A model generated the notes under the pieces. That model saw nothing but the letters and a program-made list of their open reading frames with translations, was not told the origin of the DNA and did no database searches. A stretch of DNA of 64,000 nucleotides from positions 1-64,000 of the forward strand of contig JAILOV010000034.1 of assembly GCA_024690605.1 (NCBI GenBank), given 5' to 3'. The translations under genes were made by a program, and so were the position numbers. Source of the DNA: Lachnospiraceae bacterium. GTDB lineage: Bacteria > Bacillota > Clostridia > Lachnospirales > Lachnospiraceae. Of the stretch, positions 19,853-42,093 are shown in pieces. Every line of letters starts with the position of its first letter. The stretch's first letter is position 1.

Positions 19853-20533
19853 TTACATCTGTTCTCCGTTCTGCAGTTCGATCGTCATATCCGCCGCGCC
19901 CATGAGGCCGACATCATGTGTTGTCATGAGCACCGTAATGCCTTCCCTGCGGGTCATTTCCTTAAAGATCTCCGTCACATGCGCTGCCATGGCGGAATCC
20001 AGCTCCGCGGTGGGTTCATCCGCGAAGATGATCGCCGGGTGATGGGCAAAGGCGCGCGCAATGGCCACACGCTGCTGTTCGCCGCCGGACATCTCGGCAC
20101 TCATGTGGGTCATGCGGTTGGCGAGCCCCACGAGCTTCAGGCATTCCTCCACGCGCGCCTGCGAGTCCCGGCCGATCTTCTGACCGGCCATACGAATGGA
20201 GAACTCCACATTCTGAAACGCGTTGAGCGACGGGATGAGAGAGACGGACTGGAAGACAAAGCCCATCTCCCGGCGCCGCAGGTTTTCCCGTTCGCGATCG
20301 GACAGTTCTGTGAGCGGCTGTCCGCGGAAGAACACCTCCCCTTCGGTCGGGTCATCCAGTGAGTTCAGGATGTTCATGAGCGTTGTTTTGCCCGAGCCGG
20401 ACCGGCCCTTCAGGATCGCAAAGGTACCTGCCGGGATGGCGATGTCGATCCCTTTGAGTGCCCAGAACTTACCCGCGGGTGTGTCAAAGGCCCGCTTCAC
20501 ACCGTTTGTTTGTATAATGAGATCCTGTGTCAT
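19853..20533 (-). CDS. MacB/LolD-type ABC ATPase (second of the exporter)
   Basis: 226 aa, the compact length of LolD/MacB-type ATPases. Walker A GRSGSGKTT (43-51), Q-loop FVFQSVSLIPSL, signature MSGGEQQR (148-155), Walker B AIIFADEPTAELDS (167-180), H-loop TTHD. No C-terminal extension, unlike its neighbour. It follows the permease gene by 15 bp. Two different ATPases beside one double-FtsX permease suggest a heterodimeric motor. Confidence 0.92.
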   Translation of the reverse strand: MTQDLIIQTNGVKRAFDTPAGKFWALKGIDIAIPAGTFAILKGRSGSGKTTLMNILNSLDDPTEGEVFFRGQPLTELSDRERENLRRREMGFVFQSVSLIPSLNAFQNVEFSIRMAGQKIGRDSQARVEECLKLVGLANRMTHMSAEMSGGEQQRVAIARAFAHHPAIIFADEPTAELDSAMAAHVTEIFKEMTRREGITVLMTTHDVGLMGAADMTIELQNGEQM

Positions 20534-20548
20534 ATATTCTCCTGTCAG

Positions 20549-25560: not shown

Positions 25561-26663
25561 TGTTTAACGACCTGATCCCCTTCCTCCAGACCCTGCAGGA
25601 TCTCTATCCGGTCATCTCCGACAAGACCGGTCTCGATCCAGGCGATCTGTCGGAAGCCGTTATCATCCAGCGTATACACATAGGGCTTTCCGTCGGCGTG
25701 AAAGACGGTTCCGAGGGGGAGCGACAGAACCTGATCCCGCCGGTCGAGCGTGATCCGGATGGTTGCCGAGGTTCCCACATCAATACCGTCGTTGTCAGGT
25801 CCCGAGAGGATCTCAAAACGCTGTACATCATCCCAGTCTTCCATCTGCCAGGGCACAACCTCATAGCTGCCGGCAGCGTTGCCGTACACGATGTCCAAAG
25901 GGACCGCTTCTCCTTCGCGGAAGCAGGAACTGACATCGGGCTCCTTCATCTCAAAATGACCGGTGGAGCTGTCAACGATGGTCATGACGACTTCGTCTTT
26001 GCGGGAGGTGGAGCCTTCCAGGTCCGACGTCACGGAAAAGACGGTTCCGGACATGGTGGAAAAGATGCGGCTGGCGGAAAGCTCGGACCGCAGATGAGAG
26101 AGCTTCTTCCGGTCGAATTCGATCTCATCGTTCAGATCTTCCCGCTTGTAGCGATAGCTTTCGGAAATCGAGGCTTCGTTTTTTTCGTATTTCTCCACGT
26201 CCTCGTCTTTGATCTCGGGCGTGTTATAGACAAAACCGTTATAGGTGTCCGCCCGGTCAAATCCCTCGGCGGCATCAAGATACGACAGATCCAGCTCGTT
26301 TTTCTTGATCCGGTATTCCAGCTCATCGATCTCTGCCTGCAGATTGTCGGCGGAGAGTTCAACGAGCAGATCGCCGGGCTTCACACTGTCACCCTGACGG
26401 ACATGCACCTTGGACACGCGCTTTCCGCCGACCGGAAAGGAAACTTCCTGTTCCTTGTTCTGCACCCAGGTGGCTGTCAGGGCTCTGGTGAGGACGACAT
26501 CCTCTCTGGTGACGGATATCAGACTGTACAGCGGTTCTTCGGAGGAATTGTCCACAACGACCATCGGCTCCTCCCCGGTTTTGCCGCAGCCGGCGGCAAG
26601 CGGGAGAAGCATGCAGATGCATAACAGATATGAGATTGATCGACGGATTCTTCCTGTGGGCAT
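25557..26663 (-). CDS. HlyD/MacA-like adaptor lipoprotein
   Basis: 368 aa. Signal peptide with lipobox LAAGC (Cys26). Order: lipoyl-like half GGKRVSKVHVRQGDSVKPGDLLVEL, coiled-coil hairpin about 105-205, second lipoyl half STMSGTVFSVTSDLEGS, beta-barrel, and C-terminal VLSLPLGTVFHADGKPYVYTL. A conventional single-module membrane-fusion protein. Its stop overlaps the start of the double-length adaptor (4 bp). Together the two genes give three adaptor modules for one permease. Confidence 0.88.
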   Translation of the reverse strand: MPTGRIRRSISYLLCICMLLPLAAGCGKTGEEPMVVVDNSSEEPLYSLISVTREDVVLTRALTATWVQNKEQEVSFPVGGKRVSKVHVRQGDSVKPGDLLVELSADNLQAEIDELEYRIKKNELDLSYLDAAEGFDRADTYNGFVYNTPEIKDEDVEKYEKNEASISESYRYKREDLNDEIEFDRKKLSHLRSELSASRIFSTMSGTVFSVTSDLEGSTSRKDEVVMTIVDSSTGHFEMKEPDVSSCFREGEAVPLDIVYGNAAGSYEVVPWQMEDWDDVQRFEILSGPDNDGIDVGTSATIRITLDRRDQVLSLPLGTVFHADGKPYVYTLDDNGFRQIAWIETGLVGDDRIEILQGLEEGDQVVKQ

Positions 26664-26690
26664 CTGTCAGTCCGATCTGTATCGCGGGAT

Positions 26691-27662
26691 TCAGTTTTTT
26701 CCCGGCGGGGTAAAAGGCTGGGGTCTGGGTCTGCGAACGGCGACAACACCGCTCTGCTCAAGATTTCGCAGGACCTGAAAACGCACTTCGGCGGCGTGCT
26801 CCGGACGGATCATATAGAAACAATAGGTGTCGATCAGACCGAACAGATTAGCAGTCCGGCCCTCGATCTTGAAATTCGTGATCCCGCGGGGGATATATTC
26901 CTCCCAGATCTCATCGGGCTTCACGACCGTCGGATAACTCTGGATACTGTAGACCGTGTTTTCTATGCCGTATTTGCAGTTCCATTCGGGGAGCGGCTTT
27001 CTTCTCTCGGGCGGCAGCTTTCTGTTTTTGAGGACGATCCGCTGGCGTCTCGCGATCTCGCGGTAATGCTCGCCGCGTCGGGGACAGTTCGGCGTGCAGG
27101 TCGCGTTCACGAGCACCTCCAGTTTGTCGGGATGCCGCAGCTTCTCGATGAATTCCCAGTTCCCGTTAAGATTGTAGTCGAGGACCACATATTTATAATC
27201 CTTTTCCATTTCCGCGTTCAGCGCATCGACATCTTTGATCTCCTTGCAGGTCGTGCTGTTGATCACGAAGGAAGGATAGTTTTTCCGGATGTATTCTTCC
27301 AGAAGAGGTGAAAAGACGAGCACTTCGTTTCTGTAGCCGGAGGCCGCCTGCAGGCAGAAGTTGCAGAATTCGTCCTTCAGATCCTCTTCCGTGAGGAGGG
27401 GGTTGGTAAACGTATAGCGGATGGGGATACCGGCCTCATTGATCGCGCGGATCGTGGCCAGGATAAAACCGGCGTCACACTGATCGTTGGGATCAATCTC
27501 CCGGCCGCCGTTCCAGAGCGCAAAGGGGAAACAGCCGAAAAAGGAGCCGATCTCGACTCCTTCGCGAAAGAGTTCCGGGTGCTGTCTGTTCAGACTTACC
27601 CAGATCATATTGAGCGGGAAATTGTAACGGAGTCCCGGCAGGTGAAATCTTGCAGAAGACAT
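26691..27662 (-). CDS. Unrecognised TIM-barrel-like protein B (possible U32-like), first gene of the exporter operon
   Basis: 323 aa, soluble. Divergent paralogue of the protein at 17964-18878 with the same block order: HLPGLRYNF, GSFFGCFPFALWNGGR, IPIRYTFTNPLL, FCNFCLQAA, SPLLEEYIRKNYPSF, NSTTCKEIKD, VLDYNLN, VLVNATCTPNCPRRGEHY, and RGITNFKIEGR. The conserved CxxxCP motif and extra Cys hint at metal or Fe-S binding. ATG 27662 has GAGGGA just upstream; the track's TTG start at 27677 is part of the preceding hairpin tail. No strong promoter was found immediately upstream, so transcription may come through the hairpin from the binding-protein gene. Confidence 0.75.
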   Translation of the reverse strand: MSSARFHLPGLRYNFPLNMIWVSLNRQHPELFREGVEIGSFFGCFPFALWNGGREIDPNDQCDAGFILATIRAINEAGIPIRYTFTNPLLTEEDLKDEFCNFCLQAASGYRNEVLVFSPLLEEYIRKNYPSFVINSTTCKEIKDVDALNAEMEKDYKYVVLDYNLNGNWEFIEKLRHPDKLEVLVNATCTPNCPRRGEHYREIARRQRIVLKNRKLPPERRKPLPEWNCKYGIENTVYSIQSYPTVVKPDEIWEEYIPRGITNFKIEGRTANLFGLIDTYCFYMIRPEHAAEVRFQVLRNLEQSGVVAVRRPRPQPFTPPGKN

Positions 27663-27677
27663 GGTTCCCTCTTTCAA

Positions 27678-27737: not shown

Positions 27738-29195
27738 TCAAATCCCGTCAAGCGCCGTGTTGGTGCTGTCCAGGATGCCTGCCCACTTGTCGCGCACCTT
27801 GTCGTTGATCTCGGAGACCGTGGCGGTTCCGTTGAACATGGAGAAGTACACGTTGTCCCAGGTCGCGCCGTCCAGAGGGCTGGAAACTTCGAGCTCCGGA
27901 ACCCAGCCGGCATAGGTGGGCTTGATCTTGTTGATATCCTGCAGGCTGAAGTTGGTCTGGATACCCTTCTCATCGAGGTTGTAGTTGTTGAACTCGGAAC
28001 CTCTGGAGTTGTAGTCCTCATAGCCGGCAGGGAGCGTCTCCCATGCGTCATAGGCGAAAGCGATCAGACGGGCCTTCTCCGCGTCGTAGCAGCCGGGCAT
28101 CATGATGATGTTGCCGTGCACGGTGGAGATCAGGTTCTTGCCGTCCTTGGTCGGGAACGGAACAAAGCCGTTCGTGTCTGCGCAGCTGCCGACGAAGGAA
28201 CCTGCCTGTCCGGCATAGCCGTCCTCGATCAGGAACGCGATCTTGCCGTCGGTGTAGTTGGTGCGATAATCATCCCACACAGCCGGATCGTGCCAGGTCA
28301 TGTAGTAGTCCTTGGTGATCTTGTAAGCAAACTCCATTGCCTCAAGAGAAGCGGCATCTTCGACCTTGCTGACGAAATGGCCGTTGGAATCCTTGGCAAT
28401 GATGTCACCGCCGTTTCCGAGGACCGCGACCGTCAGGGTCTGGCCGATGCCGTTGGAGCCGAGCGCGAAGTAGTCGGACTGTCCGTCACCGTCCTTGTCC
28501 ACCGCGGCAACCTTCTTCAGCATGTCTTCGAAGGCACTCCAAGTCCACGTGCCGCCGTCAACCATGTCATAGATGCTGTTGGGGTCGATACCGCAGTCTT
28601 CAAGGATGCGGTGGTTGAAGAAGAGGCCGGCACCGATCTCGGGATCACCGGCGAGGATACCGAAGGTCTTGTTGCCGATGGTGTCATAGGCTGTGATGGC
28701 GTTCTTGGTGTACTTGGAATCCTTGAGATCGATGGTGTCGATCGTTGCCCAGTCATAGGCGAGACCCTGCAGGATTGAAGGACCCTGGAAGCCGTCCGGA
28801 AGGGTGAACAGGAGAGCCTGATCATCGCCGCCGGATGCGCAGTAGTTCTGGAACTCCTCGGTGATGCCGGCGCCCCAGCCAAGGCCGCCCTGATACTTGA
28901 AGGTGAAGTTATAGGTCTTCTCGAGCCACTCACGATAGGCGAGACGATCCTCTTCGAACTGGGTCGTGGGATCGCTGACGGAACCGTCTTCGGGGCTCCA
29001 CCAGTCACGGACGACAACTTCCATTCCGCCGAGATCGAAAGGCTTGCCGGTCTTGGGATCCTTTGTCACGGTGTAGGGAGCCACATCGTCACCGGACTTG
29101 CCGGCATCTCCTGCGCCGCCGCAGGCCGTGAGGCTCATTGTCATCGCTGCAGCCGTAACTGCCGCAACAACCTGTTTGGACATGGGCTTTTTCAT
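27738..29195 (-). CDS. Sugar ABC transporter substrate-binding lipoprotein
   Basis: 485 aa. Signal peptide with lipobox LTACGG (Cys25), then a CUT1-type binding-protein fold (GKIAFLIEDGYAGQAGSF, FVPFPTKDGKNLISTVHGN, LIAFAYDAWE). An EF-hand-like loop DKDGDGQSDYFAL is present, as in several extracellular binding proteins. Met 29195 with AAGGAGG upstream is the start; the track's longer version reads through the promoter. Last gene of the carbohydrate locus, with its own promoter, which suggests higher expression than the permeases. The ligand is unknown. Confidence 0.92.
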   Translation of the reverse strand: MKKPMSKQVVAAVTAAAMTMSLTACGGAGDAGKSGDDVAPYTVTKDPKTGKPFDLGGMEVVVRDWWSPEDGSVSDPTTQFEEDRLAYREWLEKTYNFTFKYQGGLGWGAGITEEFQNYCASGGDDQALLFTLPDGFQGPSILQGLAYDWATIDTIDLKDSKYTKNAITAYDTIGNKTFGILAGDPEIGAGLFFNHRILEDCGIDPNSIYDMVDGGTWTWSAFEDMLKKVAAVDKDGDGQSDYFALGSNGIGQTLTVAVLGNGGDIIAKDSNGHFVSKVEDAASLEAMEFAYKITKDYYMTWHDPAVWDDYRTNYTDGKIAFLIEDGYAGQAGSFVGSCADTNGFVPFPTKDGKNLISTVHGNIIMMPGCYDAEKARLIAFAYDAWETLPAGYEDYNSRGSEFNNYNLDEKGIQTNFSLQDINKIKPTYAGWVPELEVSSPLDGATWDNVYFSMFNGTATVSEINDKVRDKWAGILDSTNTALDGI

Positions 29196-29229
29196 TCTTT
29201 TTCCTCCTTTGATGATAGATTTTATATGA

Positions 29230-29246
29230 TGTCCGAAGATCGGACA
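29230..29246 (-). other. 5'-terminal stem-loop in the binding-protein mRNA leader
   Basis: TGTCCGA-TCT-TCGGACA, a perfect 7-bp stem, begins about 3 nt from the predicted start point. It is placed as an mRNA-stabilising 5' hairpin would be. Confidence 0.5.
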
Positions 29247-29255
29247 ACCGCGCAT

Positions 29256-29284
29256 ATTGTACCACGAAAATCGCAGTTTTTCAA
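29256..29284 (-). promoter_or_regulatory. Promoter of the 485-aa binding-protein gene
   Basis: Minus strand TTGAAA (29279-29284), 17 bp, TACAAT (29256-29261) with TGG before it. Near-consensus with extended -10. It lies between the last permease gene and the binding protein. Confidence 0.85.
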
Positions 29285-29291
29285 TCAATTA

Positions 29292-30305
29292 TCACATTTT
29301 GATGCCCGTACTGCTGATGCTCTCCACGAAAGCTCTCTGTGCAAAAAGATACAGGATGATGAGCGGTGCGATGACCAGCAGGATCGCCGTCGACAGAAGC
29401 TGATTGACCTGTGCGGGCGGCAGCTGTACCGGCTGTCCGGCACCCGAGGCGTTGCCGACATAGGAACCGATCCCGTCCGCGAAACCGCTCAATGAGGTGC
29501 TCAGGAACACCTTACCGCCGAGGAACATCCTCGTGTAGAACACATCCGTCCACTGCCAGACAAAGGCAAACAGAAAGCAGCTGGTAAGGATCGGCTTCGC
29601 TTCGGGAAGCATGATCCGGATAAAGGTCTGGAAGGTACCCAGTCCGTCAACATAGGCGGCCTCTTCAAGATCGCCGGGAATGTTGCGGAAGAACTGTCGG
29701 ATCAGGAAGATGTAAAGGCCGTTCTTGAGCCCCGTACAGCCGATGCTCATCAGGTAATACGGCAGCGTCGAATTGCGCAGATTGATGCTCTCTCCGGTGA
29801 TCAGCTGATGGAGCCCGAGGATATCAAAGAAACGGAAATGCAGGTAAAGCGATGTCGATATCGTCTGGGGAGGCACGAGGATCACCACCATGACGCAGGC
29901 AAACCAGAATTTCTTGAAGGGAAACTCGAACCGCGCGAAGCCGTAGCCGACGAGCGTGCACATGGCGACCTGCACGAGAGCGACGGTCAGCGACACGATG
30001 AGCGTGTTGAAAAAGCCCTGTCCGTAGCGCATGCCGCCATAGGCGATCTTGTAGTTTTCGGTGATGACCCTGGTCGGGATCGAGATGACGACCGGGTTGT
30101 AGATGTCATCCAGAGACATGAGGCTCACCGAGATCTTCTCGAGGATCGGCTGCAGGATCATGAAGCACATGCCGAAAAGCAGGATGAAACGCGCAAAGGA
30201 CGCGCCGGCGGAGACCAGCCGGGATCGGAGAAGATAACCGCCGGACAGCCTGTTACGCTCGCGGAATTCATGCCAGCTCATTTTTCCGGCCCTGATCTTA
30301 CTCAT
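29292..30305 (-). CDS. Carbohydrate ABC permease, MalG type (second pair)
   Basis: 337 aa with about six membrane segments. The EAA loop LEEAAYVDGLGTFQTFIRIMLPEAKP, which contacts the ATPase, is intact. An N-terminal cytoplasmic extension of about 40 residues and an inserted loop rich in Gly/Ala/Pro (GNASGAGQPVQLPPAQ) before the last segment are longer than in MalG itself. It overlaps the MalF-type gene by 8 bp. No ATPase gene is adjacent. Confidence 0.93.
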   Translation of the reverse strand: MSKIRAGKMSWHEFRERNRLSGGYLLRSRLVSAGASFARFILLFGMCFMILQPILEKISVSLMSLDDIYNPVVISIPTRVITENYKIAYGGMRYGQGFFNTLIVSLTVALVQVAMCTLVGYGFARFEFPFKKFWFACVMVVILVPPQTISTSLYLHFRFFDILGLHQLITGESINLRNSTLPYYLMSIGCTGLKNGLYIFLIRQFFRNIPGDLEEAAYVDGLGTFQTFIRIMLPEAKPILTSCFLFAFVWQWTDVFYTRMFLGGKVFLSTSLSGFADGIGSYVGNASGAGQPVQLPPAQVNQLLSTAILLVIAPLIILYLFAQRAFVESISSTGIKM

Positions 30306-31209
30306 AGTAATAAACTCCTCTTGATATGAGCGCCGATGTGATCCCCACGAAGATCAGCACGACGACGAAGTAGATCCACGACATGGCGGAGGTCAGACCG
30401 TAATTGAGCTGCAGGATCATCACGCCCTGGATCTTTTTCATGATCGCGCTGTCGCTGCGCATGCAGTAGTCGACGACCGTATAGAACCAGTTGACGAGGA
30501 AGATGGAGGAGATCATCGGGAAGGTGATCTTCCACAGACTCTCCCAGGCCGTGCAGCCCTCGATCTCGGCGGCCTCATACATGCTCTGCGGGATGGTCTG
30601 CAGTCCCGAGAGGAAGATGATGATCTGTATGCCGGAGGCCACGGCGACATCGTAGATGTTATCGATGATCTCAAAGACCGTTTCAAAGGCTCTGACGCCG
30701 ACACCGGCTGTCCGGAGCACGATCTGGATCGTCTCGGTGATGCTCACGTTGGAGGTGCTCGCCTGGATCGCTGCCTGCATGCTGTCCATGACGGCATTGT
30801 CCGTCTCGACACCGAGCATGACGCCGGAGGAGAGGATAACAGGCAGGAAGAAGATCGCCCGGACCAGAGCCCTGCCGTGGAACTTCTGATTCAGGATCAG
30901 TGCGACAAAGAAGGAGAACACCATGATCGCCAGCGTGTAAACAAACATGTTGAGTGCTCCCTCGGTCAGAAGCTGCGGGAAACTCGCATCCTGCCGGAAC
31001 GCGAAATAGTAGTTCTTGATGCCGATCCATGTCTGGTCGAACCGTCCGGCGCCGACCTTGACATCACAGAAGCTCATGTAGAGCGACTGGATAAGAGGCT
31101 TGATCATGAAGACAAGGAAACCGATGATGAACGGGGAGATGAACAGATACCCCGAGACGGCTTTTCTTTTCTGCAGTCCGACATATTTCTTTTTCTTCAG
31201 TTTTGCCAT
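30298..31209 (-). CDS. Carbohydrate ABC permease, MalF type (second pair)
   Basis: 303 aa, about six membrane segments after a lysine-rich start (MAKLKKKKYVGLQKRK). EAA loop YEAAEIEGCTAWESLWKITFPMISS. The periplasmic region contains a long Ser/Thr-rich insert (AAIQASTSNVSITETIQIV) unusual for a minimal MalF. It pairs with the overlapping MalG-type gene and follows the DUF5696-type gene by 13 bp. Confidence 0.93.
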   Translation of the reverse strand: MAKLKKKKYVGLQKRKAVSGYLFISPFIIGFLVFMIKPLIQSLYMSFCDVKVGAGRFDQTWIGIKNYYFAFRQDASFPQLLTEGALNMFVYTLAIMVFSFFVALILNQKFHGRALVRAIFFLPVILSSGVMLGVETDNAVMDSMQAAIQASTSNVSITETIQIVLRTAGVGVRAFETVFEIIDNIYDVAVASGIQIIIFLSGLQTIPQSMYEAAEIEGCTAWESLWKITFPMISSIFLVNWFYTVVDYCMRSDSAIMKKIQGVMILQLNYGLTSAMSWIYFVVVLIFVGITSALISRGVYYYE

Positions 31210-31222
31210 CTGATCCTGCTCC

Positions 31223-33841
31223 TTACCTGACCACTACATAGTCGCGGGCAGGCACGAGAACACCCTCCGCGTCATAATCGTTGAAACCGGTGTTGACATA
31301 AACCTTTGTTCCGTCCTCATAGACCGTCACGGAGACCTCATCGGACAGATTGTCATAGTCTGTCATTTCCATGCGGAATACATGGCCCATTTCCTTGTTA
31401 TAGCGGTTATAGGTCGCGATCGCCCGCTCCCGCCAGGAATCGTAGCTTGCGCCGTAAAGCTCGCTGTACATCGTTTTCTGTGTCACAAACGCATCCGCTT
31501 TCATGAACGCATAGGAGAGACCCGCTCCGTACCGCGCGCAGAGCAGCAGCTCCTCCTCTGCGTTTCCGCAGAGATTGATGGGATCGCCGGTGTAATCGAC
31601 ATAGCCGTGGATCGCGAGCTCATAGAAGGGAATGTATGCATCCAGAATGGTATATTCGCTTCCCTTGAGATCCATGCCCATGACGATATCGCTGTAGAGG
31701 GCGGCATATTCGTTGCCCATCTGCGTCAGGAAAGGCGTCCGGTTTTCCTGGAGGGCCTTGAAGCGCTGCATCTGATCCTCGAGCGCGACCTGTCTGGAGC
31801 GCATGTTCTTCCGGTAGTAGTCGGCGGCAAGATCCTTGCCGATGTCGGCAAAGGACACGCCTGCCCCGTTCTTTACGGCGTAAGTCTGCAGGTTGTCCGC
31901 CATTCGATCGGCGAGGTCCGCGTGCAGGAGATAATAGGATTCGGCAAATTCCCGTGAGGCATAGGTGATATGACTGAACTGGTGCTGCTCTGCCCGCTCC
32001 TTGGTGATAAACCGCGCCGCGTCCCGGAAGGAGAAGAAGCCGTTGAAAATGTTGCTGTCGTATTCGTACATCGTCGCGCCGTCAAGATACAGCGTGGCGT
32101 TTGCCGATCCCGCGCCGGCAATGAGCTTCTTCAGACCGCCTGCTCCGCCGAGACTGCGGATGGGCCGGATGTGTTTCAGGATCTTCTGCTTCAATCCGCC
32201 GTTGCACCAGCCGGTCAGACGCACGGAAAGGTTTTTCAGACCGCCCTCGGAAAGGTCGGAGATGATCGTCCCGGCTTCCGCATAGGTCGTGAGCGGCAGC
32301 GGTCTGGATACGGGGACGCCGAGGATCTGTTTGACCTTGTCGATCGCACCGACGATCTCTATGGCAACGGGAGCATCGGTATCATCGCGCAATGACATCA
32401 CTTCCCCATAGGTGTCTTTGAGATAGGAGGCATAGGACTTGGCCATGTCCGTGTAATCGCCGGAGGCGATGAAGCGGTAGCGCTGGGAGACAGTCTCGTC
32501 CGGGAGCTCCCAGAGATAGGAGTAGACTTCGCCCTGGGAAAGCCCGGTCACATCATACTGCTCGCGGGCGAGCATCGTATAGGTCGCATCGATATAGTTG
32601 TAACTGTTCGTCTTGCCGGCGACATCGGCACGGACGGCGGCATAGGCGCGGCCTCCCTCCAGAATGCACAGGAAGGAGTCATCGCCTTCCGACAGGCCGA
32701 AGGTGTTGTAGAAGACACGTGTGTCATGAACCAGATCCTTGCGGGAGATGCCGTAATCCCAGCCGTAGAGATTGGCATAGTAGCCGTTCAGGGAGGTTTT
32801 GTTGTTGTTGAAGCGGATCAATGCGCCACTGCCCTCAGGCACGAACAGGAAGCCTTCCGCATCCGTCCCGGTCGCGCCGAAGTAAGGAAGCGGCGAGAGG
32901 GAATACAGGGGGTAGTCCTTGCGGTGTTCGATCTCCGAGAGCGGGACCTCGACCACGAGTTCGTCACCCTCCAGGCGGTAGCGGATCGTCACGTTAAAGA
33001 CCGGCTTGTCCGAGGTCTTTTCGGCGTTATCGAGCGACTTGGATTCGAGATAATCGTCATAGGTGAAGCCGGCGGCACCGAAGTAGCCCTCCAGCTTCTT
33101 GCGCTGCGTCTCCTTGGTCTCCGAACGGAAGGCGTAGATCACTTCCTTCGACATGATCGGATATCTGGCCAGAAGCGCGTCCTTGTCATCCTTCTTGCTG
33201 AGATTGTCGATGTCATATTTTTTGTAGTACTGGCTGACAAGTTCCTTTTCACTCGCGCTCATCGCGCCGACAAACCGGTCATAGACCTCTTTGGTCATCA
33301 CCGCGGGGATGATATAGTCCTTTTCGATATCGCCGATGCTGTAGCGCACGGTGATCGAGGAGGCGTCGGATTCGATCTCGTAGTTCTTATTCTTCGTGGA
33401 GTGTGCATAGGAATTGATCGCCGTATCGACACCGCTCGCGTCGGAATAAGTGAGCGCGATCGTGGAATTCAGCCGGTCCTTTTCCGCGCCGAGAGCGATG
33501 CTGTCCTTTTCGGTGTCCTGCGCGTTGGAATACCAGACCTTGCCGGTCTGCTTGACCAGGAGTGAAAACTGTGTGGTCACGGGATCCATCGTGAGCTTCA
33601 GGGCGTCATTTTCCAGAATGATCTCCGTCTCGTCTCCGGTATACTCATGGATCTCGGAAATGCTCGCGTCATTGTCCGTCTTCTGGAAGAAGATGATGAG
33701 GAAGATGGCGAGCGCGACCACACCGATGAAGGCAAGAGGGACGAGGATGTCCTTCAGCGCCTGCTTTACAGCGTTGCGCCGCTCCACCTGCTTCTCGGTC
33801 AGCTCTTTTTTCGGTTTTGTCTTTGCTGTGTCTTTGCTCAT
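31223..33841 (-). CDS. DUF5696-type membrane-anchored extracytoplasmic protein
   Basis: 872 aa. A charged cytoplasmic start, one membrane segment (about 33-53), then a large extracytoplasmic part: a beta-rich N half (DALKLTMDPVTTQFSLLVKQTGKVWYSN, FLFVPEGSGALIRFNNNKTSLNGYYANLYGWDY) and a C half with barrel-like spacing (LKNLSVRLTGWCNGGLKQKI, ANATLYLDGATMYEYD, TQMGNEYAALYSDIVMGMD). This matches my recollection of DUF5696 proteins, found with YIP1 and ABC genes in Paenibacillus-type loci. A glycoside-hydrolase-like role is possible but no catalytic pair can be named. A bacterial cell-surface location is expected. Confidence 0.82.
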   Translation of the reverse strand: MSKDTAKTKPKKELTEKQVERRNAVKQALKDILVPLAFIGVVALAIFLIIFFQKTDNDASISEIHEYTGDETEIILENDALKLTMDPVTTQFSLLVKQTGKVWYSNAQDTEKDSIALGAEKDRLNSTIALTYSDASGVDTAINSYAHSTKNKNYEIESDASSITVRYSIGDIEKDYIIPAVMTKEVYDRFVGAMSASEKELVSQYYKKYDIDNLSKKDDKDALLARYPIMSKEVIYAFRSETKETQRKKLEGYFGAAGFTYDDYLESKSLDNAEKTSDKPVFNVTIRYRLEGDELVVEVPLSEIEHRKDYPLYSLSPLPYFGATGTDAEGFLFVPEGSGALIRFNNNKTSLNGYYANLYGWDYGISRKDLVHDTRVFYNTFGLSEGDDSFLCILEGGRAYAAVRADVAGKTNSYNYIDATYTMLAREQYDVTGLSQGEVYSYLWELPDETVSQRYRFIASGDYTDMAKSYASYLKDTYGEVMSLRDDTDAPVAIEIVGAIDKVKQILGVPVSRPLPLTTYAEAGTIISDLSEGGLKNLSVRLTGWCNGGLKQKILKHIRPIRSLGGAGGLKKLIAGAGSANATLYLDGATMYEYDSNIFNGFFSFRDAARFITKERAEQHQFSHITYASREFAESYYLLHADLADRMADNLQTYAVKNGAGVSFADIGKDLAADYYRKNMRSRQVALEDQMQRFKALQENRTPFLTQMGNEYAALYSDIVMGMDLKGSEYTILDAYIPFYELAIHGYVDYTGDPINLCGNAEEELLLCARYGAGLSYAFMKADAFVTQKTMYSELYGASYDSWRERAIATYNRYNKEMGHVFRMEMTDYDNLSDEVSVTVYEDGTKVYVNTGFNDYDAEGVLVPARDYVVVR

Positions 33842-33869
33842 TCCCGCTCCAATATGTGTATCCGATGTG

Positions 33870-34532
33870 CTACATGCGGAACAGCATTTCTCTGACCAGT
33901 GAAACGATATAGGAGACCCCCTCGGTGATCATGCTGAAAAAGAGCAGCAGGAGAAACACCATCACGAGCATCGCGAAGAGCGATGCGATCGTGAACAGGA
34001 GGTTCTTGGCGCCGGAGAACTCGTGGATCTGTCCCATGGCGGCGATGATCAGGATACCGGCATAGATGAGGCTCAGGGCGCTGATGACCGTATAGAATTC
34101 GCGCTCGTCCACAGTGACGCCGTTGGAGAGCAGCATCAGCGGCAGCTGCACCACGGGATAGGGCAGCAGGCCATAGCAGGTCGCCATATAGACCTGTCCG
34201 AGGCGGCCTTTGCCGTCAAAGAGCGTTGTGAGCGCCCAGTTGCCAACCACCCAGAGTGCAAGAGGAAAGAGAACGCTTGCCAGATAGAGGAAGATGTTAA
34301 GTTCCTCCCAGTAGACCGTGATGAAGATAAAGCTGGTAAAGCGCAGCTTCATGATACGCACGATGAGCGTCACGATCAGGATCGTGTTGGCGGCGGCCAT
34401 GGTGCCGCGCTTCTCGTGGGTGAGATCCCAGAAGCCGTCCAGCGGATGCGTCATGCAGTAGAAGGCGAATTTCAGGGAATCCCAGTATTTCGCCCACCAT
34501 GCCTTATCCTTCCATGTCAATGCCTGTTCCAT
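33870..34532 (-). CDS. YIP1-family membrane protein
   Basis: 220 aa. A cytoplasmic N terminus containing YCMTHPLDGFWDLTHEKRGTMAAA, the opening usual for bacterial YIP1-domain proteins, followed by about five membrane segments (FPLALWVVGNWALTTLFDGKGRLGQVYMATCYGLLPYPVVQLP is the diagnostic stretch). No enzymatic motif. It sits between the NHL and DUF5696 genes with gaps of 10 and 28 bp, an arrangement that suggests a membrane partner of those surface proteins. Confidence 0.88.
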   Translation of the reverse strand: MEQALTWKDKAWWAKYWDSLKFAFYCMTHPLDGFWDLTHEKRGTMAAANTILIVTLIVRIMKLRFTSFIFITVYWEELNIFLYLASVLFPLALWVVGNWALTTLFDGKGRLGQVYMATCYGLLPYPVVQLPLMLLSNGVTVDEREFYTVISALSLIYAGILIIAAMGQIHEFSGAKNLLFTIASLFAMLVMVFLLLLFFSMITEGVSYIVSLVREMLFRM

Positions 34533-34542
34533 GCAGTGCCCC

Positions 34543-36105
34543 TTATTGATCTATGAGAAAAATGTCTGCGGTAGCGATGTCGTGCCGGATCTTCCTGTAA
34601 CGTCCGATCCCCAGCGGGATGAGGAACAGGGCAAGGATGACGACAACGATCCACACGATGTGCTCCTCCACCCATTCCTTGCGGTACTGCTTAAAGGCCT
34701 TGGAATAGTTCTCATCGTCATACTTGATCTCGAAATAGTCCATGGCTTCCCGGTAGCGCTCCTGACGCAGAAGCGAGCGGCCGATCCCGATATAGGCCAG
34801 ATCATAGTTGCCGTTGAGCCGCATGACCTCCTCCCAGGTTGCCCCGGAGGCACTGTAGTCGCCATGGTCGAATTCCTCGATCGCGCGGAACACGAGCTGG
34901 CCGAATTCCGTGAGAGAGAAGGCAGTCAGTGTCGCGGTCTGCTGATCGAGGATGAAGAGATCGGTCCCGATATGGTCGATGCCGATCGCCCAGTTGAAGT
35001 AGCCGTCTTCGTTGCCGTTGCCGCCGAAGGCAAACATCAGGCGTCCCTGGTCGTCATAGCCGAACGCTCTGCCGCGGTTCCGGTCGAGGCAGACATAGGT
35101 GTCGTTGTCAAAGACGGTCACATCGGAGAAGAGCGAAGGTCCCTGATGTCCGCCGCCGTCACCCATGTAGAGATCGCCGTAGTTGTCGTAGTCTCCGTTC
35201 CGGACAAGGATATCGTTGCCGATGAGATTAAGCTTGCGGACCGCGGTGACCTGACCGTTTTCCAGATCCTCCTCTTTGACATTGCCTGTCACGGCGTAGA
35301 TGAACCCCTCATAGTCCATGTAAAGATTGTCATACTCTGTCGGCACAAAGGAATTCATCCGGGCGAGCTGTTCCTGGGAGGCCACCTTTTTCCAGAGATA
35401 GTCCCACAGGTTATAGGTCGCGGGCAGGGCGCCGACAAAGCCGGAAAAACTGCCGTCCGCCTCGTATTTGCACAGGCCCTTGTTGATGCCGCGGGCGACG
35501 CAGTAGACGCGTTCCGCGGTATCGACCGCGATCTTGTAGGGCTGGAACACGATGCCCTGATCCAGAGCGGAATCATCGGGTTTCCCGTACTCCATGATAT
35601 AGTCGAGATCGGCGGTGAGTTTCAGCACGCGCGCATTGCCCTGGTCCGCGATAAAGACATTGCCCGCATCGGATATCGCGATATCCGTTGGCTCCACAAA
35701 GGTATTCACGCCGTTCCCGCCCCGGAAGGAACTGATGATCCGCGTCACGGACAGCTGCTTCGTCTCATCCCGCACAAGCTCGATGATCCGGTTGTTGCCG
35801 GTGTCGCAGATATAGAGGTTATCCCCGTGGGCATAGAGTCCCTGCGGATTTTTCATCTTCAGATCGAGGGCCAGATCCGCAGAAGTGTAACTGGCGGTCA
35901 CGGCGAACACATCGGGAGAATCCTGAACATCCTCCCAGTAATCATAGCGGTAGGTGTAACCGTGTTCGTGCATCGCGGCGTGACTTGTCGTGCCGGATAC
36001 CGTTATGAGGGAAAGGGACAGGATCAGACCTGCGGTCGCGAGAGCCGTCCCTCTCACCGCTTTTGCCCTTCTTTTTTGTGTCTGTTGCAACGCGAGAAAC
36101 TTCAT
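34543..36105 (-). CDS. Exported NHL-repeat propeller protein with C-terminal membrane anchor
   Basis: About 520 aa. N-terminal signal sequence (GTALATAGLILSLSLITVSGTTSHAA), then NHL-type repeats including MKNPQGLYAHGDNLYICDTGNNRIIEL, VEPTDIAISDAGNVFIADQGNARVLKL and FQPYKIAVDTAERVYCVAR, predicted to form a six-bladed propeller. A TPR-like helical pair near 440-485 (GIGRSLLRQERYREAMDYFEIKY) leads to a membrane segment about 490-507. ATG 36105 is preferred over 36111 because GAGGGA then lies 6 nt away. Likely a surface scaffold for glycan or protein contacts; no catalysis inferred. Confidence 0.85.
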   Translation of the reverse strand: MKFLALQQTQKRRAKAVRGTALATAGLILSLSLITVSGTTSHAAMHEHGYTYRYDYWEDVQDSPDVFAVTASYTSADLALDLKMKNPQGLYAHGDNLYICDTGNNRIIELVRDETKQLSVTRIISSFRGGNGVNTFVEPTDIAISDAGNVFIADQGNARVLKLTADLDYIMEYGKPDDSALDQGIVFQPYKIAVDTAERVYCVARGINKGLCKYEADGSFSGFVGALPATYNLWDYLWKKVASQEQLARMNSFVPTEYDNLYMDYEGFIYAVTGNVKEEDLENGQVTAVRKLNLIGNDILVRNGDYDNYGDLYMGDGGGHQGPSLFSDVTVFDNDTYVCLDRNRGRAFGYDDQGRLMFAFGGNGNEDGYFNWAIGIDHIGTDLFILDQQTATLTAFSLTEFGQLVFRAIEEFDHGDYSASGATWEEVMRLNGNYDLAYIGIGRSLLRQERYREAMDYFEIKYDDENYSKAFKQYRKEWVEEHIVWIVVVILALFLIPLGIGRYRKIRHDIATADIFLIDQ

Positions 36106-36115
36106 ATACATTCCC

Positions 36116-37018
36116 TCAGTCCTTCAGACCGGAGCTGGCCATGGTCTCGAGGATCTGGCTCTCCGAGAAGACGAAGATCAGGATCGGGACGACCATGACG
36201 ACCACCAGCACTGCCGCGCCCTGACCGGTGCGGGCAATGCCGCCGGCCTGGATCTGCTGCAGCGCATAGACCAGCGTCTTGCGCTCCTCGGAGTAGATAT
36301 AGGTCGATGCCTTGTTGTTCCACAGCGCCTGCACCGAGAAGATGATGAGCGTCATCCACGCGGGCTTGACGTTGGGCATGACGATCTGGTAGAAGACGCG
36401 CCATTCATTGGCACCGTCGATCTTCGCAGCCTCGATCAGCGAGGTCGGCAGTCCCTCCATGAACTGTTTCATGAGGAAGAGTCCCATCGGAGAAGCAAAG
36501 GCCGGAATGATGATCGACCAGTAGGTGTCGATCCAGCCGAGTTTGTTGAGGATCAGATAGTTCGGGATCTGTGTGACATAGCCGGTGAACATCATGGCGA
36601 CCGTGACCAGTTTAAAGAAGGCCGCATTGCCGGGAAACTCGTATTTTGCCAGCACAAAGGCGCCCATGGAGGCGATGATCAGATGGCCAAAGGTGCCGAC
36701 AAAGGTGATGAACACCGTGTTGAACAGGTAGCGCGAAAACGTCACCCAGCTCTTCCCCATCGTCACGAACAGATCGGAGAAGTTGTCCAGTGTCGGATGC
36801 TGCGCAAAAATGCGCGGCGGGAACTTGAACAGCTCATCCAGAGGCTTTAAGGCGCTCGAAACCGCATAGATGATCGGGAATGCCATAATGAACGCTACGA
36901 TCACCAGGAAGAGATAGAGGAAGAAATCGCCCGCGATGGAGCGGTTGGGCTTTCTCTTCTTGATGAGCGGCTTCTTATAAGGCTTTTCTTCGACCTGTTT
37001 TTTCTGCTTTTTTGCCAT
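36116..37018 (-). CDS. Carbohydrate ABC permease, MalG type (first pair)
   Basis: 300 aa. A lysine-rich cytoplasmic start, six membrane segments, and EAA loop LIEAAKIDGANEWRVFYQIVMPNVKP. Ends SQILETMASSGLKD, the usual MalG-type tail. It precedes the NHL gene by about 10 bp and follows its MalF-type partner by 64 bp; that gap shows no hairpin or promoter. Confidence 0.94.
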   Translation of the reverse strand: MAKKQKKQVEEKPYKKPLIKKRKPNRSIAGDFFLYLFLVIVAFIMAFPIIYAVSSALKPLDELFKFPPRIFAQHPTLDNFSDLFVTMGKSWVTFSRYLFNTVFITFVGTFGHLIIASMGAFVLAKYEFPGNAAFFKLVTVAMMFTGYVTQIPNYLILNKLGWIDTYWSIIIPAFASPMGLFLMKQFMEGLPTSLIEAAKIDGANEWRVFYQIVMPNVKPAWMTLIIFSVQALWNNKASTYIYSEERKTLVYALQQIQAGGIARTGQGAAVLVVVMVVPILIFVFSESQILETMASSGLKD

Positions 37019-37082
37019 TTCGGATCTTGTTCTCCTTACCGTTCGCTTCTGGCCGGATGATCTTTTCCCGTTAGCACCGCGA

Positions 37083-38036
37083 TCAGGTGCCCACTCTCCT
37101 GAGCAGGCTCTGGATCGCCTTGTTGCACAGGATCATGATGAGGAACAGGATCGTTGCGATCGCGCAGGCGTATCCCATCTCGAATCTCGAAAAACCGTAG
37201 TCGAACAGGTGGGTGACAATGGTTCGCGCGGCATAGTCCGTGGAAGGGTAGCCGCAGAGCGCCATGGTGACATCGCAGACACCGAAGGCCTGCGTGATCG
37301 ACATGACCGCACCGAACATCAGCATCGGCTTCATGTTGGGAAGCGTGATATACCATAGCTCCTGCCAGCGGTTCTTGACACCGTCCATGTAACCGGCCTC
37401 AAACTGGCTGCGGTCAACACCCTGCAGACCGGCGACAAAGGAGAGGAAACCGGTTCCCAGACTCATCCACAGGATGACCAGCATACAGATCGGCAGCATA
37501 TAGTCCGGATTGATGAGCCACAGGATCGGCTTGTCGATCAGGCCGATGTTCATAAGGAACGCGTTGACATAGCCGTAGGCATCACCGCGGAAGAACACGG
37601 AGAAGATGACATAGCAGTTGCCGGCGATGGACGGCGCGTAGAAGACGATGACCGCCACGGATCGCACCCAGCGCGGCAGTTCGTTGATGAGCCACGCGAA
37701 GAGGAACGAAAGGATGTAACCCAGCGGTCCCGTGATGATCGCGATCATAAAGGTGTTCTTGATGCCGATCAGGAAGATGTCATCCTCCAGGATGAGACTG
37801 ATGTAGTTGGAGAGCCCGATAAAGCGCGGGGGTTCCAGGATGTTGTAATAGGTGAAGCTGTAGTAGATCGACGCCACCACCGGAAAAACATAGAACATCG
37901 TGAACAGGATCGCGTAGGGTGCGAGGAAGAGGTAGCACATTTTCCGTGCCTTCGCCTTTTTCCATGCGACACCCGCTTCATGCCTGCGCAGCGTGACATA
38001 TTTCCGGAACATGTTCATGTTTTCGGTTTTTTCCAT
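37083..38036 (-). CDS. Carbohydrate ABC permease, MalF type (first pair)
   Basis: 317 aa, six membrane segments after a basic N terminus (RRHEAGVAWKKAKARKMCYLF). EAA-like loop FEAGYMDGVKNRWQELWYITLPNMKP has Gly where EAA loops usually have the second Ala, a mild divergence. It is 28 bp downstream of the large binding protein gene and completes the first importer with it and the MalG-type gene. Confidence 0.93.
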   Translation of the reverse strand: MEKTENMNMFRKYVTLRRHEAGVAWKKAKARKMCYLFLAPYAILFTMFYVFPVVASIYYSFTYYNILEPPRFIGLSNYISLILEDDIFLIGIKNTFMIAIITGPLGYILSFLFAWLINELPRWVRSVAVIVFYAPSIAGNCYVIFSVFFRGDAYGYVNAFLMNIGLIDKPILWLINPDYMLPICMLVILWMSLGTGFLSFVAGLQGVDRSQFEAGYMDGVKNRWQELWYITLPNMKPMLMFGAVMSITQAFGVCDVTMALCGYPSTDYAARTIVTHLFDYGFSRFEMGYACAIATILFLIMILCNKAIQSLLRRVGT

Positions 38037-38064
38037 CGATGGTTCCTCTGCTGAGAGCTTGTAC

Positions 38065-41022
38065 TTATTCCGTACTCATCCCGAATTCACGTCTCTTCTT
38101 TTCAATCTCCTCGTCGATCATGATCGAATAGTCGATGATCGTCTCGCGGGAGTCAACCTTTTCATTGATGACCTTACGGATGGCGTTGGAGATGTGCCGG
38201 CCGGTGAAGTAGCCGCCGGGCACTTCGCGGATGCCGCGGGTCTCGTCCCACTGTGCGTTCAGCACGGCGATGTCATCCATGGACCAGGAAAGATTGGAAA
38301 ACGCGTCGCGGTTGGCGGTGGCGTAACGGGCACTGGATCCGAGGAGCGCCTCGATCTCCCGTCCGAAACGGATCTGCGTATCCGGCTGCGCCCACCATTT
38401 CATGAATTCCCATGCGTTCTTCTTCAGCTGTTCATCCTCGGTCGTGCACATCATCGTCGCGCTGCCCGTGATGAAATCGGAGCGGTCGATGTAGGTCGAA
38501 CCGTCCGCGGCCGTGCGCTCCGTTCCGGGGATCACCGTGAAGTCCCAAAGTCCGCGGATCTCCGGTGCGGAGACCATCAGCGTGTTATAGGTCGAGTAGG
38601 CGGAAATACCGAGCGGCATCTCGCCGGAACGGAAGCGGCTTACGAAGTCATAGACCGTCGGGATGCCGTAGTCGTTGAAGTAGCGTACATAGTCGTCGAA
38701 GGCGCGGATCCCGGCCTCGTCGTTGACAACGGTTTTCGTGCCCGCCTCGTTGTACATGTCGCCGCCATACTGGAACAGGAGCGAGAAATACAGGGACAGA
38801 TCCGGGATGTTGCTCATGATCTGCGTGGAAGCGGTCGCCGCACTGGAGGAACCCGCCGCGGTCGGGATGCCGACGGACAGGTTGTTCCCCTGGATCGTCG
38901 GAAATTCCTCGATGAGTTCCTGCCAGGTCTGCGGGATGGGGAGTCCCAGCTCCTCCATGACATCCTTGCGATAGAACATGACGTTAAAGGTCTGCGTCTC
39001 CGGAATGCCGTAGATGTGCTCATCCAGACGATACTGCTCATAAGAGCTTTCGGAGTAGTGCGAGAGCACCTCTTTCCAATCGTCAAACTGCGTGATGTCT
39101 TCCGCCGCGTTGCGCAGCGCGTAGTTGACCGGCTGATCGGCGCCGATGGAAAGCACGACATTGGGACCGCGGCCCGCCATGACGGCATTGAGCACCGCGG
39201 AGGGATCGACGATCTCAACATTGACCTTGACGCCGGTGTTCGGAACAAAGGTGTCGTCGACCATGGTCTTTAAGATCGTGCCCTGGTCGCGGCCGGTCAG
39301 CACCCAGACCTTGACGAGCTTTTCGTCACTGTCGTCTTCGTAGACATCGCCGACCGAGTTGTAGTCGACCACAAAGGAAGCCACAAAGCTCCGCGCCTCG
39401 TGCGCGAGTTTCATGAAGGGATTTGCCTTGCGCTTGGCCGGCTGCACATCCGTGCCGGTGACAACCAGATAATCAACATCCAGCTTGGTGTCGCTCATGT
39501 TCAGCGACGCCGTGCCGAGCGCGGTGATGTTGTCCTTGAAGGTGACGAACTCGGTGGTGATATTCTGGGGCTTTCTGCAGAAGCGCTCCAGCTGCTGGGC
39601 GACGGTCTGCGCCGTGGCGATGTTGTCGGCTTTCTGGCCGCTGTAGAGCGTCATCTCATCGACGATCTTATACAGGCGCTTGGATTCGAGATCCATGGCT
39701 TTCATGATCTCCGGGTAGGTCGTGTTGATCCGGTAATCGCGGTACTGATCGGGTGTCGCGCCGGTATAGACGAGGATCTTGCGATAGATCTGGTTCAGGC
39801 GGAAGGTGGAATCCTCCAGTTCGGAGAGGATCGGCCCCACGCCGCCGAGCGTCGCTTCCAGACGGATGGTGTGTGTTCCCGCTGTCAGATAGAAATTGTA
39901 GGGCGTTCCGCTTTCGTCGGCGAGATCCTTGTATTCCCAGTCATTCTTGTAGGCAAAGGAGACATTCTCCAGTTCCTTAAACGGCATTTCGCCGTCGATG
40001 AGAACTTTTCTGGTGGAGACGCTGCCGCGGGAATAGTTCTGCCGCCCCTTGATCGTGATGTTGTAGAAGCCGTCCGCGGGGACCTCGAATTCCCACTCGA
40101 TCCACTGTCCGCAGTGACGCCAGGTCTCTCCGCCGACATAGTTGAGGATCGTTTTGGTGACGCTGTTGGGGACCGTGGTGGGACTGGAGCGGTCATATTT
40201 GGCATAAAGGGAGGATTCCGAACGTCGTGAGGATTTCTCGCCCTGAATGATCGAAGAGAAACGGAGATCAGCGGCGCCGTCCGCTGTCGGCTGTGCGGAG
40301 AGGTAGTCCGTGTATGCCGGCGGATCCGAGACGCCTTCCAGCGAGAGCGAGGCCAGCACCATCGGCTCGTTTTCGGCATAGAGAGAAAGGGTGTTGCTTC
40401 CTTTTTCGAAATAGAACAGGTAGGGATCCACGGTATAGCCCATATCATCCCGAAAATAAGCATCCTGCCAGTCAAAAAGCTCGATCTGGGAAGGTCGGAT
40501 CTCGTTGCCGCGGTTGTCGGTGCGGACAGGACCGCCGTCCTGCCAGATCCGGGAGAAGGAGATGTTCCTCGCGCGCTCGAAGGGGATCTCGCCGTTTACG
40601 GAAACGGAACGCTCCGCAGCGACACCTCGGGATTCGGGGAGCAGATATTCCGTGTGAAGACGGTACAGACCGGCATTGGGGACATCAACGGTCCAGGTCA
40701 CGGTGGAACCGGTCTCCGTGAAGAGTGCATGGGACACACCTTCATAATCATCGACCGGATGTACATCGCCCTCGGCCGTGAAACGATCGAGCTCCACCGA
40801 TATCACATCCGAAGAGCCGGCGACGGGATCGGCGGCGTGATCGTTGAGATATCCCGCGTAAGTTCCGGCGCGCTCCATGCCGCTCACATCCTTTGTCAGA
40901 TCGACGCCGGCGTATTTGTTTTCAAAGGTTTCCACCCGCCGCATGGAAAGAAGAACGCACAGAAGGACAAAGGCGGCGATGACGATAAGGACCAGGATGA
41001 TCTTTTTGGATGTCTTCTGCAT
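38065..41022 (-). CDS. Membrane-anchored substrate-binding protein with CBM-like N-terminal modules
   Basis: 985 aa, about twice a normal binding protein. A signal-anchor helix (about 7-26, no lipobox) is followed by two carbohydrate-binding-module-like beta domains, roughly 70-230 (TVTWTVDVPNAGLYRLHTEYL) and 280-400 (WIEWEFEVPADGFYNITIKGRQ, AGTHTIRLEATLGG), a helical linker, and a C-terminal solute-binding domain from about 560 (EQYRLDEHIYGIPETQTFNVMFYRKDVMEELGLPIPQTWQELIE, EQLKKNAWEFMKWWAQPDTQIRFG). First gene of the locus. ATG 41022 (10 nt from GGAGG) is favoured; 41031 is almost on top of the RBS. Confidence 0.88.
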   Translation of the reverse strand: MQKTSKKIILVLIVIAAFVLLCVLLSMRRVETFENKYAGVDLTKDVSGMERAGTYAGYLNDHAADPVAGSSDVISVELDRFTAEGDVHPVDDYEGVSHALFTETGSTVTWTVDVPNAGLYRLHTEYLLPESRGVAAERSVSVNGEIPFERARNISFSRIWQDGGPVRTDNRGNEIRPSQIELFDWQDAYFRDDMGYTVDPYLFYFEKGSNTLSLYAENEPMVLASLSLEGVSDPPAYTDYLSAQPTADGAADLRFSSIIQGEKSSRRSESSLYAKYDRSSPTTVPNSVTKTILNYVGGETWRHCGQWIEWEFEVPADGFYNITIKGRQNYSRGSVSTRKVLIDGEMPFKELENVSFAYKNDWEYKDLADESGTPYNFYLTAGTHTIRLEATLGGVGPILSELEDSTFRLNQIYRKILVYTGATPDQYRDYRINTTYPEIMKAMDLESKRLYKIVDEMTLYSGQKADNIATAQTVAQQLERFCRKPQNITTEFVTFKDNITALGTASLNMSDTKLDVDYLVVTGTDVQPAKRKANPFMKLAHEARSFVASFVVDYNSVGDVYEDDSDEKLVKVWVLTGRDQGTILKTMVDDTFVPNTGVKVNVEIVDPSAVLNAVMAGRGPNVVLSIGADQPVNYALRNAAEDITQFDDWKEVLSHYSESSYEQYRLDEHIYGIPETQTFNVMFYRKDVMEELGLPIPQTWQELIEEFPTIQGNNLSVGIPTAAGSSSAATASTQIMSNIPDLSLYFSLLFQYGGDMYNEAGTKTVVNDEAGIRAFDDYVRYFNDYGIPTVYDFVSRFRSGEMPLGISAYSTYNTLMVSAPEIRGLWDFTVIPGTERTAADGSTYIDRSDFITGSATMMCTTEDEQLKKNAWEFMKWWAQPDTQIRFGREIEALLGSSARYATANRDAFSNLSWSMDDIAVLNAQWDETRGIREVPGGYFTGRHISNAIRKVINEKVDSRETIIDYSIMIDEEIEKKRREFGMSTE

Positions 41023-41057
41023 GCAGGGCATTCCTCCGTCGGTGACAGAACACGGAT

Positions 41058-41145: not shown

Positions 41146-41174
41146 TTTACAAAACGTCGATGAATGCATACAAT
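41146..41174 (+). promoter_or_regulatory. Promoter of the esterase gene
   Basis: TTTACA (41146-41151), 17 bp, TACAAT (41169-41174). Divergent from the uptake-locus promoter; the two share the central palindrome. Confidence 0.7.
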
Positions 41175-41217
41175 TCAGGTGATGCCACAATATCTGATCT
41201 GCAGGGAGGGCGGGATC

Positions 41218-42093
41218 ATGATCTATCAGGAATACGAAGTAACGACGGATGAGCGGCGCGGACAGAGCGCCCGCGTTTTTTTCTATATTCAGGCGTATAC
41301 GGAGAGCATCGCCGTGGACAAAAGGCCGCTGGTGCTGATCTGTCCCGGCGGCGCCTATGCCTACACAAGCGACCGGGAAGCGGAACCCATCGCACTGGCA
41401 TTCCTCGCCCAGGGATTTCATGCCGCCGTGCTGCGCTATGACTGCGCGGACTACGATGAGAGCGCGGAGGAGACAGCGGGTGATGCTTATGAAGTGGAGC
41501 CCGCGGCGCGCATCGGGGTGGCCCGGGCGGTGGCACTTGTCTATCAGCACGCGGAGGAATGGCATGTGGACACATCGAAGATCGTCCTGTGGGGGGCTTC
41601 GGCCGGAGGACATCTTGCCGCGCACTATGCCTGCACCTGGTATGACGAAATGCCGGCGCTGACCGGTCTTTCCCGGGAGTCACTGCGGATCGGCGGTCTG
41701 ATGCTCGCCTATCCGGTCATTACTTCCGGTGAAAAGACGCACCGGGATTCCATAAAAAATCTGCTGCGGGAAAAGCGAAACGATCCGGAGGAACGGAAAC
41801 GTGTATCATTGGAAAACCGCGTGAACGGACATGTGCCGCCGACTTTTCTCTGGCACACCTGGACGGACGGGAGCGTGCCGGTGGAGAACAGTCTGCTGTT
41901 CGCACAGGCGCTTAAGGAACATGATGTTCAAACGGAGCTGCACATCTTTCCTGCCGGCGGTCACGGCCTCTCTCTCGCAGACGAGCGGACCGTCAGCAGT
42001 TTCAGTCTGGAGATCGAGCCCTGCTGTCAGATCTGGATCGATCTGGCCTGTGCGTGGCTGAAACGGCTTGCCGGAAAGGCTGAGGCACGGTAG
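41218..42093 (+). CDS. Alpha/beta hydrolase, BD-FAE/acetyl-xylan-esterase-like
   Basis: 291 aa, no signal peptide, so cytoplasmic. Seen: oxyanion motif VLICPGGAYAYTSDREAEPIALAF, nucleophile WGASAGGHLAAHYA (Ser128), acid candidate in HTWTDGSVPVENSLLFA, and His in FPAGGHGLSL. This pattern matches the small carbohydrate esterases that deacetylate or deferuloylate imported oligosaccharides. ATG 41218 follows GGGAGGG; the track's 41164 start overlaps the promoter. Divergence from the uptake locus with a shared palindrome suggests it acts on that locus's imported glycan. Its end is 13 bp from the convergent dacA. Confidence 0.85.
   Translation: MIYQEYEVTTDERRGQSARVFFYIQAYTESIAVDKRPLVLICPGGAYAYTSDREAEPIALAFLAQGFHAAVLRYDCADYDESAEETAGDAYEVEPAARIGVARAVALVYQHAEEWHVDTSKIVLWGASAGGHLAAHYACTWYDEMPALTGLSRESLRIGGLMLAYPVITSGEKTHRDSIKNLLREKRNDPEERKRVSLENRVNGHVPPTFLWHTWTDGSVPVENSLLFAQALKEHDVQTELHIFPAGGHGLSLADERTVSSFSLEIEPCCQIWIDLACAWLKRLAGKAEAR

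Follow-up and report, generated by a model that had tools for sequence, protein, structure and literature searches.

How Gram-positive bacteria of the gut and soil, which have no outer membrane, capture long fragments of plant fibers is poorly understood compared with the SusCD systems of Bacteroidota. A nine-gene locus in the Lachnospiraceae contig studied here (64,000 nucleotides were analyzed, hereafter the window) bears on this question: it supplies a tangible, broadly conserved inventory of components, and neighboring genes allow its paralogs to be linked to xylan, mannan, arabinan, or pectin. A first-pass annotation had read the locus as a dedicated surface-capture and import machine for a specific glycan. 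Do these genes make up a conserved machine, which glycan would it serve, and does its most unusual component, a DUF5696 protein, cut that glycan or hold it?

Components of the cassette

The nine genes, in the order SBP1, P1A, P1B, NHL/TPR, YIP1, DUF5696, P2A, P2B, and SBP2, occupy positions 27738-41031 of the window, all on the minus strand, with short or overlapping gaps between them, as in an operon. The gene set named in the first-pass annotation was recovered in full at this place, with Pfam matches for four permeases (BPD_transp_1), DUF5696 (1.3e-179), Yip1 (1.8e-10), and NHL (6.3e-9, with a weak TPR match); SBP1 starts at 41031 versus the 41022 given originally. Both permease pairs, P1A (37083-38036) with P1B (36116-37018) and P2A (30298-31209) with P2B (29292-30305), carry the BPD_transp_1 domain and the EAA loop that characterize CUT1 importers, and SBP1 (38065-41031) qualifies as the solute-binding protein of such an importer. 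It is a 988-aa protein with an N-terminal membrane anchor (residues 5-36), an N-terminal region with weak CBM35/CBM6-like matches, and a C-terminal SBP_bac_8/1 domain. SBP2 (27738-29288), a 516-aa lipoprotein with the lipobox LTAC that probably starts near 29195, has no match in Pfam or the PDB and is presumed from its lipobox and synteny to be a second solute-binding protein.

The three genes between the permease pairs encode less familiar proteins. The NHL protein (34543-36111) has an N-terminal hydrophobic segment and a beta-propeller (about residues 66-400), for which NHL propellers of the PDB gave matches, and then TPR-like helices and a C-terminal transmembrane segment. Its predicted structure (mean confidence only 58) shows the propeller blades with confidence, along with the TPR-like helices and, at the C-terminus, a helix at the place of a hydrophobic segment. 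YIP1 (33870-34532) is a multi-pass membrane protein of the YIP1 family, and DUF5696 (31223-33841) has an N-terminal transmembrane segment (residues 27-57) followed by regions homologous to the beta-sandwich, TIM barrel, and C-terminal domain of GH129-type enzymes. This topology agrees with the earlier view that the NHL and DUF5696 proteins lie on the outside.

No ABC ATPase was found by Pfam among the nine genes, which bears out the initial impression that the set lacks one. A MalK-type ATPase with OB and TOBE domains is encoded outside the operon, about 12 kb from the cassette (14812-15972, plus strand), and the genome has two further OB_MalK matches elsewhere. The cassette is probably powered by a common MsmX-type protein, for which the product of 14812-15972 is the candidate. 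In Caldicellulosiruptor bescii, deletion of the common ATPase MsmK severely impaired growth on oligo- and polysaccharides, including xylan, cellulose, and pectin (PMC8579813). Importers of the CUT1 type that use a common MsmX/MsmK ATPase resemble the cassette in their permease families, EAA loops, and want of an ATPase of their own; the cassette differs from them in having two permease pairs with NHL, YIP1, and DUF5696 as near-obligate companions.

Conservation of the gene set and the proposed platform

We looked for DUF5696 in 200 Lachnospiraceae genomes and in 399 genomes from across the phylum, retrieved the neighborhoods of about 100 copies from many families, and called their genes with codon-usage scoring. 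Among the resulting 104 loci, which were picked via DUF5696 so that gene-order counts are conditional on it and refer to loci with enough sequence present, the 5' neighbor of DUF5696 is YIP1 or an NHL-YIP1 fusion in 99/99, the two genes that follow are P2A and P2B in 96/97, and SBP1-P1A-P1B lies in the same locus in 77/82. Searches that began from other components gave the same picture. Within the 200 Lachnospiraceae genomes, the NHL profile detected its protein in exactly the 43 genomes that have a cassette-type DUF5696, and 70 of the 74 NHL copies adjoin DUF5696 (the other four lie at contig ends or in genomes whose copies outnumber those that the search scores); a search with the SBP1 sequence listed the same 43. 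The co-occurrence test proposed with the first-pass annotation was therefore passed: this set goes far beyond chance, and the nine genes are a conserved machine rather than a loose neighborhood. We also considered whether cassettes without SBP1 in the locus lack it altogether, and rejected this, as SBP1 is found elsewhere in those genomes. Two SBP1 homologs (G173:C65 and G335:C93) contain one internal TAG stop, and DUF624 membrane proteins recur alongside cassettes (L040:2561-3250 and like proteins in other loci).

The set is built of two modules. Pairwise distances between components correlate at 0.86-0.95 over 83 loci, with the highest values within {NHL, DUF5696, P2} and within {SBP1, P1}, and the same blocks move as units, being swapped in order or unlinked in some families. 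A second cassette in the window's genome (L110, on contig C23), which a contig end cuts inside DUF5696, is 95-97% identical to the window cassette in P1, 84% in SBP1 and NHL, and 74% in DUF5696, and SBP2 of the window shares only 35% identity with that of a relative in the same genus (L113). SBP2 is the most divergent part of the cassette, and by these identities the outside parts DUF5696 and SBP2 change fastest.

NHL and YIP1 are fused in 40 other loci, where all 40 long NHL proteins carry a YIP1 domain. Given the fusion and the topology, the NHL protein is most likely a scaffold, and the role of membrane organizer first suggested for YIP1 is plausible. Our literature search on YIP1 or NHL proteins with ABC transporters returned nothing relevant apart from a study of YknWXYZ, in which the Yip1-family protein YknW is reportedly part of an ABC exporter system.

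The reading that we favor, and hold to be somewhat probable, is that the products of the locus form a single platform on the outer side of the cytoplasmic membrane, specific for one polysaccharide, which captures glycan and imports it. Its two modules, which are inherited together, would include a pseudo-glycosidase and a scaffold and would draw on a common ATPase. Module 1 would comprise the membrane-anchored SBP1, with its CBM-like domains, and permeases P1A/P1B; module 2 would comprise NHL, YIP1, and DUF5696 with the lipoprotein SBP2 and permeases P2A/P2B. DUF5696 would be kept next to the P2 importer by a scaffold of the NHL propeller/TPR protein and YIP1, and would bind or guide oligosaccharide chains rather than cut them; each binding protein would feed its own permease pair, and one MsmX-type ATPase would power both. 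For this cassette we infer complex formation, the binding role, the substrate, and the ATPase partner, and co-inheritance does not prove a physical complex.

It is possible, albeit unlikely, that there is no joint machine and that the operon simply co-regulates two CUT1 importers of the ordinary kind, one for short and one for long oligosaccharides (or one for plain and one for branched ones), with NHL, YIP1, and DUF5696 as accessories for sensing or assembly. All four permeases keep their EAA loops, so that each pair can function by itself; the modules can lie apart or in exchanged order, and in C. bescii the two importers are named separately. Set against this, the near-absolute co-occurrence of SBP1, NHL, and DUF5696 together with the NHL-YIP1 fusions exceeds what co-regulation needs, and a block as tight as NHL-DUF5696-P2 suggests that at least one unit is physical. 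Equally doubtful is a stronger form of the platform, in which SBP1, SBP2, the four permeases, NHL, YIP1, and the dead GH129-fold protein would make one stable membrane complex, a functional counterpart of SusCD in Gram-positive bacteria, whose pseudo-glycosidase would guide long oligosaccharides to the two importers and help set polysaccharide specificity. The likeness to SusCD is an analogy only, namely a conserved core in paralogs that each have their own enzymes; the cassette is a single-membrane ABC import system, and we claim no sequence relation.

Substrates of the cassette and its paralogs

One form of the cassette has been described already. The xylan degradation locus of C. bescii has the form xloEFG-X-GH129-axoFGE, with xylanases after it; xylan induces this locus, which is part of the XynR and AraR regulons (PMC8579813). 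The corresponding transporters of Caldicellulosiruptor saccharolyticus (Csac_2412 and Csac_2417-2419) are responsive to biomass that is rich in xylan or reduced in lignin (PMC5658599). Four of our loci (L145-L147 and L151) have all of these parts in the same order, and a 1347-aa protein in L147 stands at the place of XynF, which in C. saccharolyticus is 1347 aa long (PMC5658599). We infer from this XynF-like GH43 protein that the four loci are the Caldicellulosiruptor xylan operon. The window shares with the C. bescii locus the succession of a solute-binding protein with two permeases, X, a GH129-like protein, and two permeases with a solute-binding protein; loci of the C. bescii type have an NHL-YIP1 fusion and continue with xylanolytic enzymes in the same operon, whereas in the window NHL and YIP1 are separate and no xylanase adjoins. 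The C. bescii locus is thus the same cassette, known in one genus as two importers, X, and "GH129," and in the open-access literature we found no description of a phylum-wide module, substrate clades, NHL-YIP1 fusions, or the loss of catalytic residues. Co-conservation, plant-polysaccharide enzymes as neighbors, and the published induction of the cassette by xylan in C. bescii together strongly support the original proposal of a machine for glycan capture and import.

In many relatives a glycoside hydrolase is clustered with the cassette transporter, and the enzymes fall into classes: GH26, GH130, and CBM65 lipoproteins (mannan type); GH10, GH67, GH3, and GH5 (xylan type); GH43 and GH51 (arabinan type); and GH106 with GH28/pectate-lyase-like proteins (pectin type). 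Mapped on the DUF5696 tree, these labels require 6 changes versus a mean of 29 (minimum 24) when shuffled, or 5 changes over 51 rows when four xylan labels assigned by hand to Caldicellulosiruptor-type loci are left out. Six of the seven genomes that have two or more labeled cassettes hold different classes, and the pattern therefore does not reflect species ancestry. The different versions of the cassette appear to be adapted each to its own polysaccharide (xylan, mannan, arabinan, or pectin). The "specific glycan" of the first-pass annotation holds for each cassette but not for the cassette kind, which serves several polysaccharides. Lipoprotein-like proteins with three CBM65 domains that follow mannan-type cassettes (L040:4856-6763 and like proteins elsewhere) are possible surface glycan-binding proteins.

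For the window cassette, the most likely substrate, judged from its relatives, is xylan-derived oligosaccharides. Its DUF5696 falls in a 15-member clade whose labeled members carry GH10, GH67, GH3, GH5, or GDSL esterases. The window's genome has GH10 and GH67, while GH26 was not found in it, and a divergent BD-FAE esterase lies next to the cassette at 41164-42093, of a family that we take to be named for acetylxylan/feruloyl esterases. Xylanases in the same operon are found in the sister loci; the flanks of the window contain no glycoside hydrolase, and hence not the clustered enzymes by which a Gram-positive polysaccharide utilization locus is recognized. On the other side of the cassette is a MacAB-like exporter operon (17964-27677; two HlyD-type proteins, an FtsX permease, and two ABC ATPases) flanked by two related proteins of 305-328 aa that have no Pfam match, the 328-aa one also lacking a match in the PDB.

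The missing xylanase, the 328-aa protein and exporter downstream, and the presence of relatives of that protein beside the cassette in L003, L043, L047, and L054 lend something to the idea that the window cassette imports another glycan, such as a pectic or host-derived one, or works with the MacAB-like operon in another role. We regard this as distinctly unlikely in view of the GH10, GH10-GH5, GH3, and GH67 enzymes of the sister cassettes, the GH10 and GH67 of the genome itself, and the BD-FAE esterase.

DUF5696 as a putative pseudo-glycosidase

Solved enzymes of the GH129-like kind are matched by a profile built from 47 DUF5696 members, with E values of about 1e-9 to 1e-11, and in profile-profile comparison with Lachnospiraceae GH129-like proteins most of the length is covered, with a probability of 99.3 in local and 99.9 in global mode. 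By these profiles, DUF5696 is a full-length remote homolog of GH129 (GH129/GH101 clan). The statement that the locus has no glycoside hydrolase of a known family thus stands by Pfam but not at the level of remote homology. To the solved enzymes NagBb (5WZN, a GH129 alpha-N-acetylgalactosaminidase) and DagB (5OPQ, a 3,6-anhydro-D-galactosidase), the profile homology extends over the barrel and its flanking domains; cassette DUF5696 differs from them in its membrane anchor and in having no conserved catalytic acids. A literature search on DUF5696 returned nothing relevant.

We take Glu478 and Asp330 (NagBb numbering) to be catalytic positions of GH129. Asp435/Asp486 is a catalytic residue in GH129 (PMC5698469). 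The comparison of these positions rests on the profile alignment, an AlphaFold2 model of DUF5696 built from four sequences having been discarded (pLDDT 33). In this alignment the overall homology is evident, while neither the catalytic Asp435 nor an acid in the place of Glu478 is conserved: the nucleophile Asp435 corresponds to D666 of the window, with Asp in 46/104 cassette members; Glu478 corresponds to 707/708, mostly not Glu and with no dominant acid; and Asp330 corresponds to K551, most often Tyr, Lys, or Asn. Other positions are near-invariant in the same 104 proteins, including D362 and the acidic position 770 (Glu in 99/104). The DUF5696 members of the Caldicellulosiruptor-type xylan loci have no nucleophile Asp (ISISSISKMLYSDFG). 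We consider DUF5696 most likely to be a pseudo-glycosidase, anchored in the membrane, whose part is to bind or guide glycan; the cleaving role that the first-pass annotation had allowed for it finds no backing in these positions. A subset could nevertheless be active, because 20/104 members have, by alignment, acids at both the nucleophile and the acid/base positions.

That DUF5696 is in general an active membrane-anchored glycosidase, trimming side chains from oligosaccharides right before import, is improbable, for although it has full-length GH129 homology, a published "GH129" annotation in the C. bescii xylan locus, D666 of the window and the 20 members just mentioned, and free-standing relatives that look active on its side, the equivalents of D330, D435, and E478 vary where structural positions are nearly invariant, and the nucleophile is absent even from members of the Caldicellulosiruptor-type loci. 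On the pseudo-glycosidase reading, "GH129" as an annotation of cassette DUF5696 proteins may refer to enzymes without cleaving activity.

The simplest reading of the family as a whole would be that cassette DUF5696 lost catalysis and a free-standing family kept the catalytic residues. Free-standing DUF5696-like proteins of 560-584 aa (L108:1176-2858 and L109:1227-2981) keep the GH129-type catalytic motifs GHDG, YIDV, and SEG intact and are candidates for an active, uncharacterized glycosidase family.
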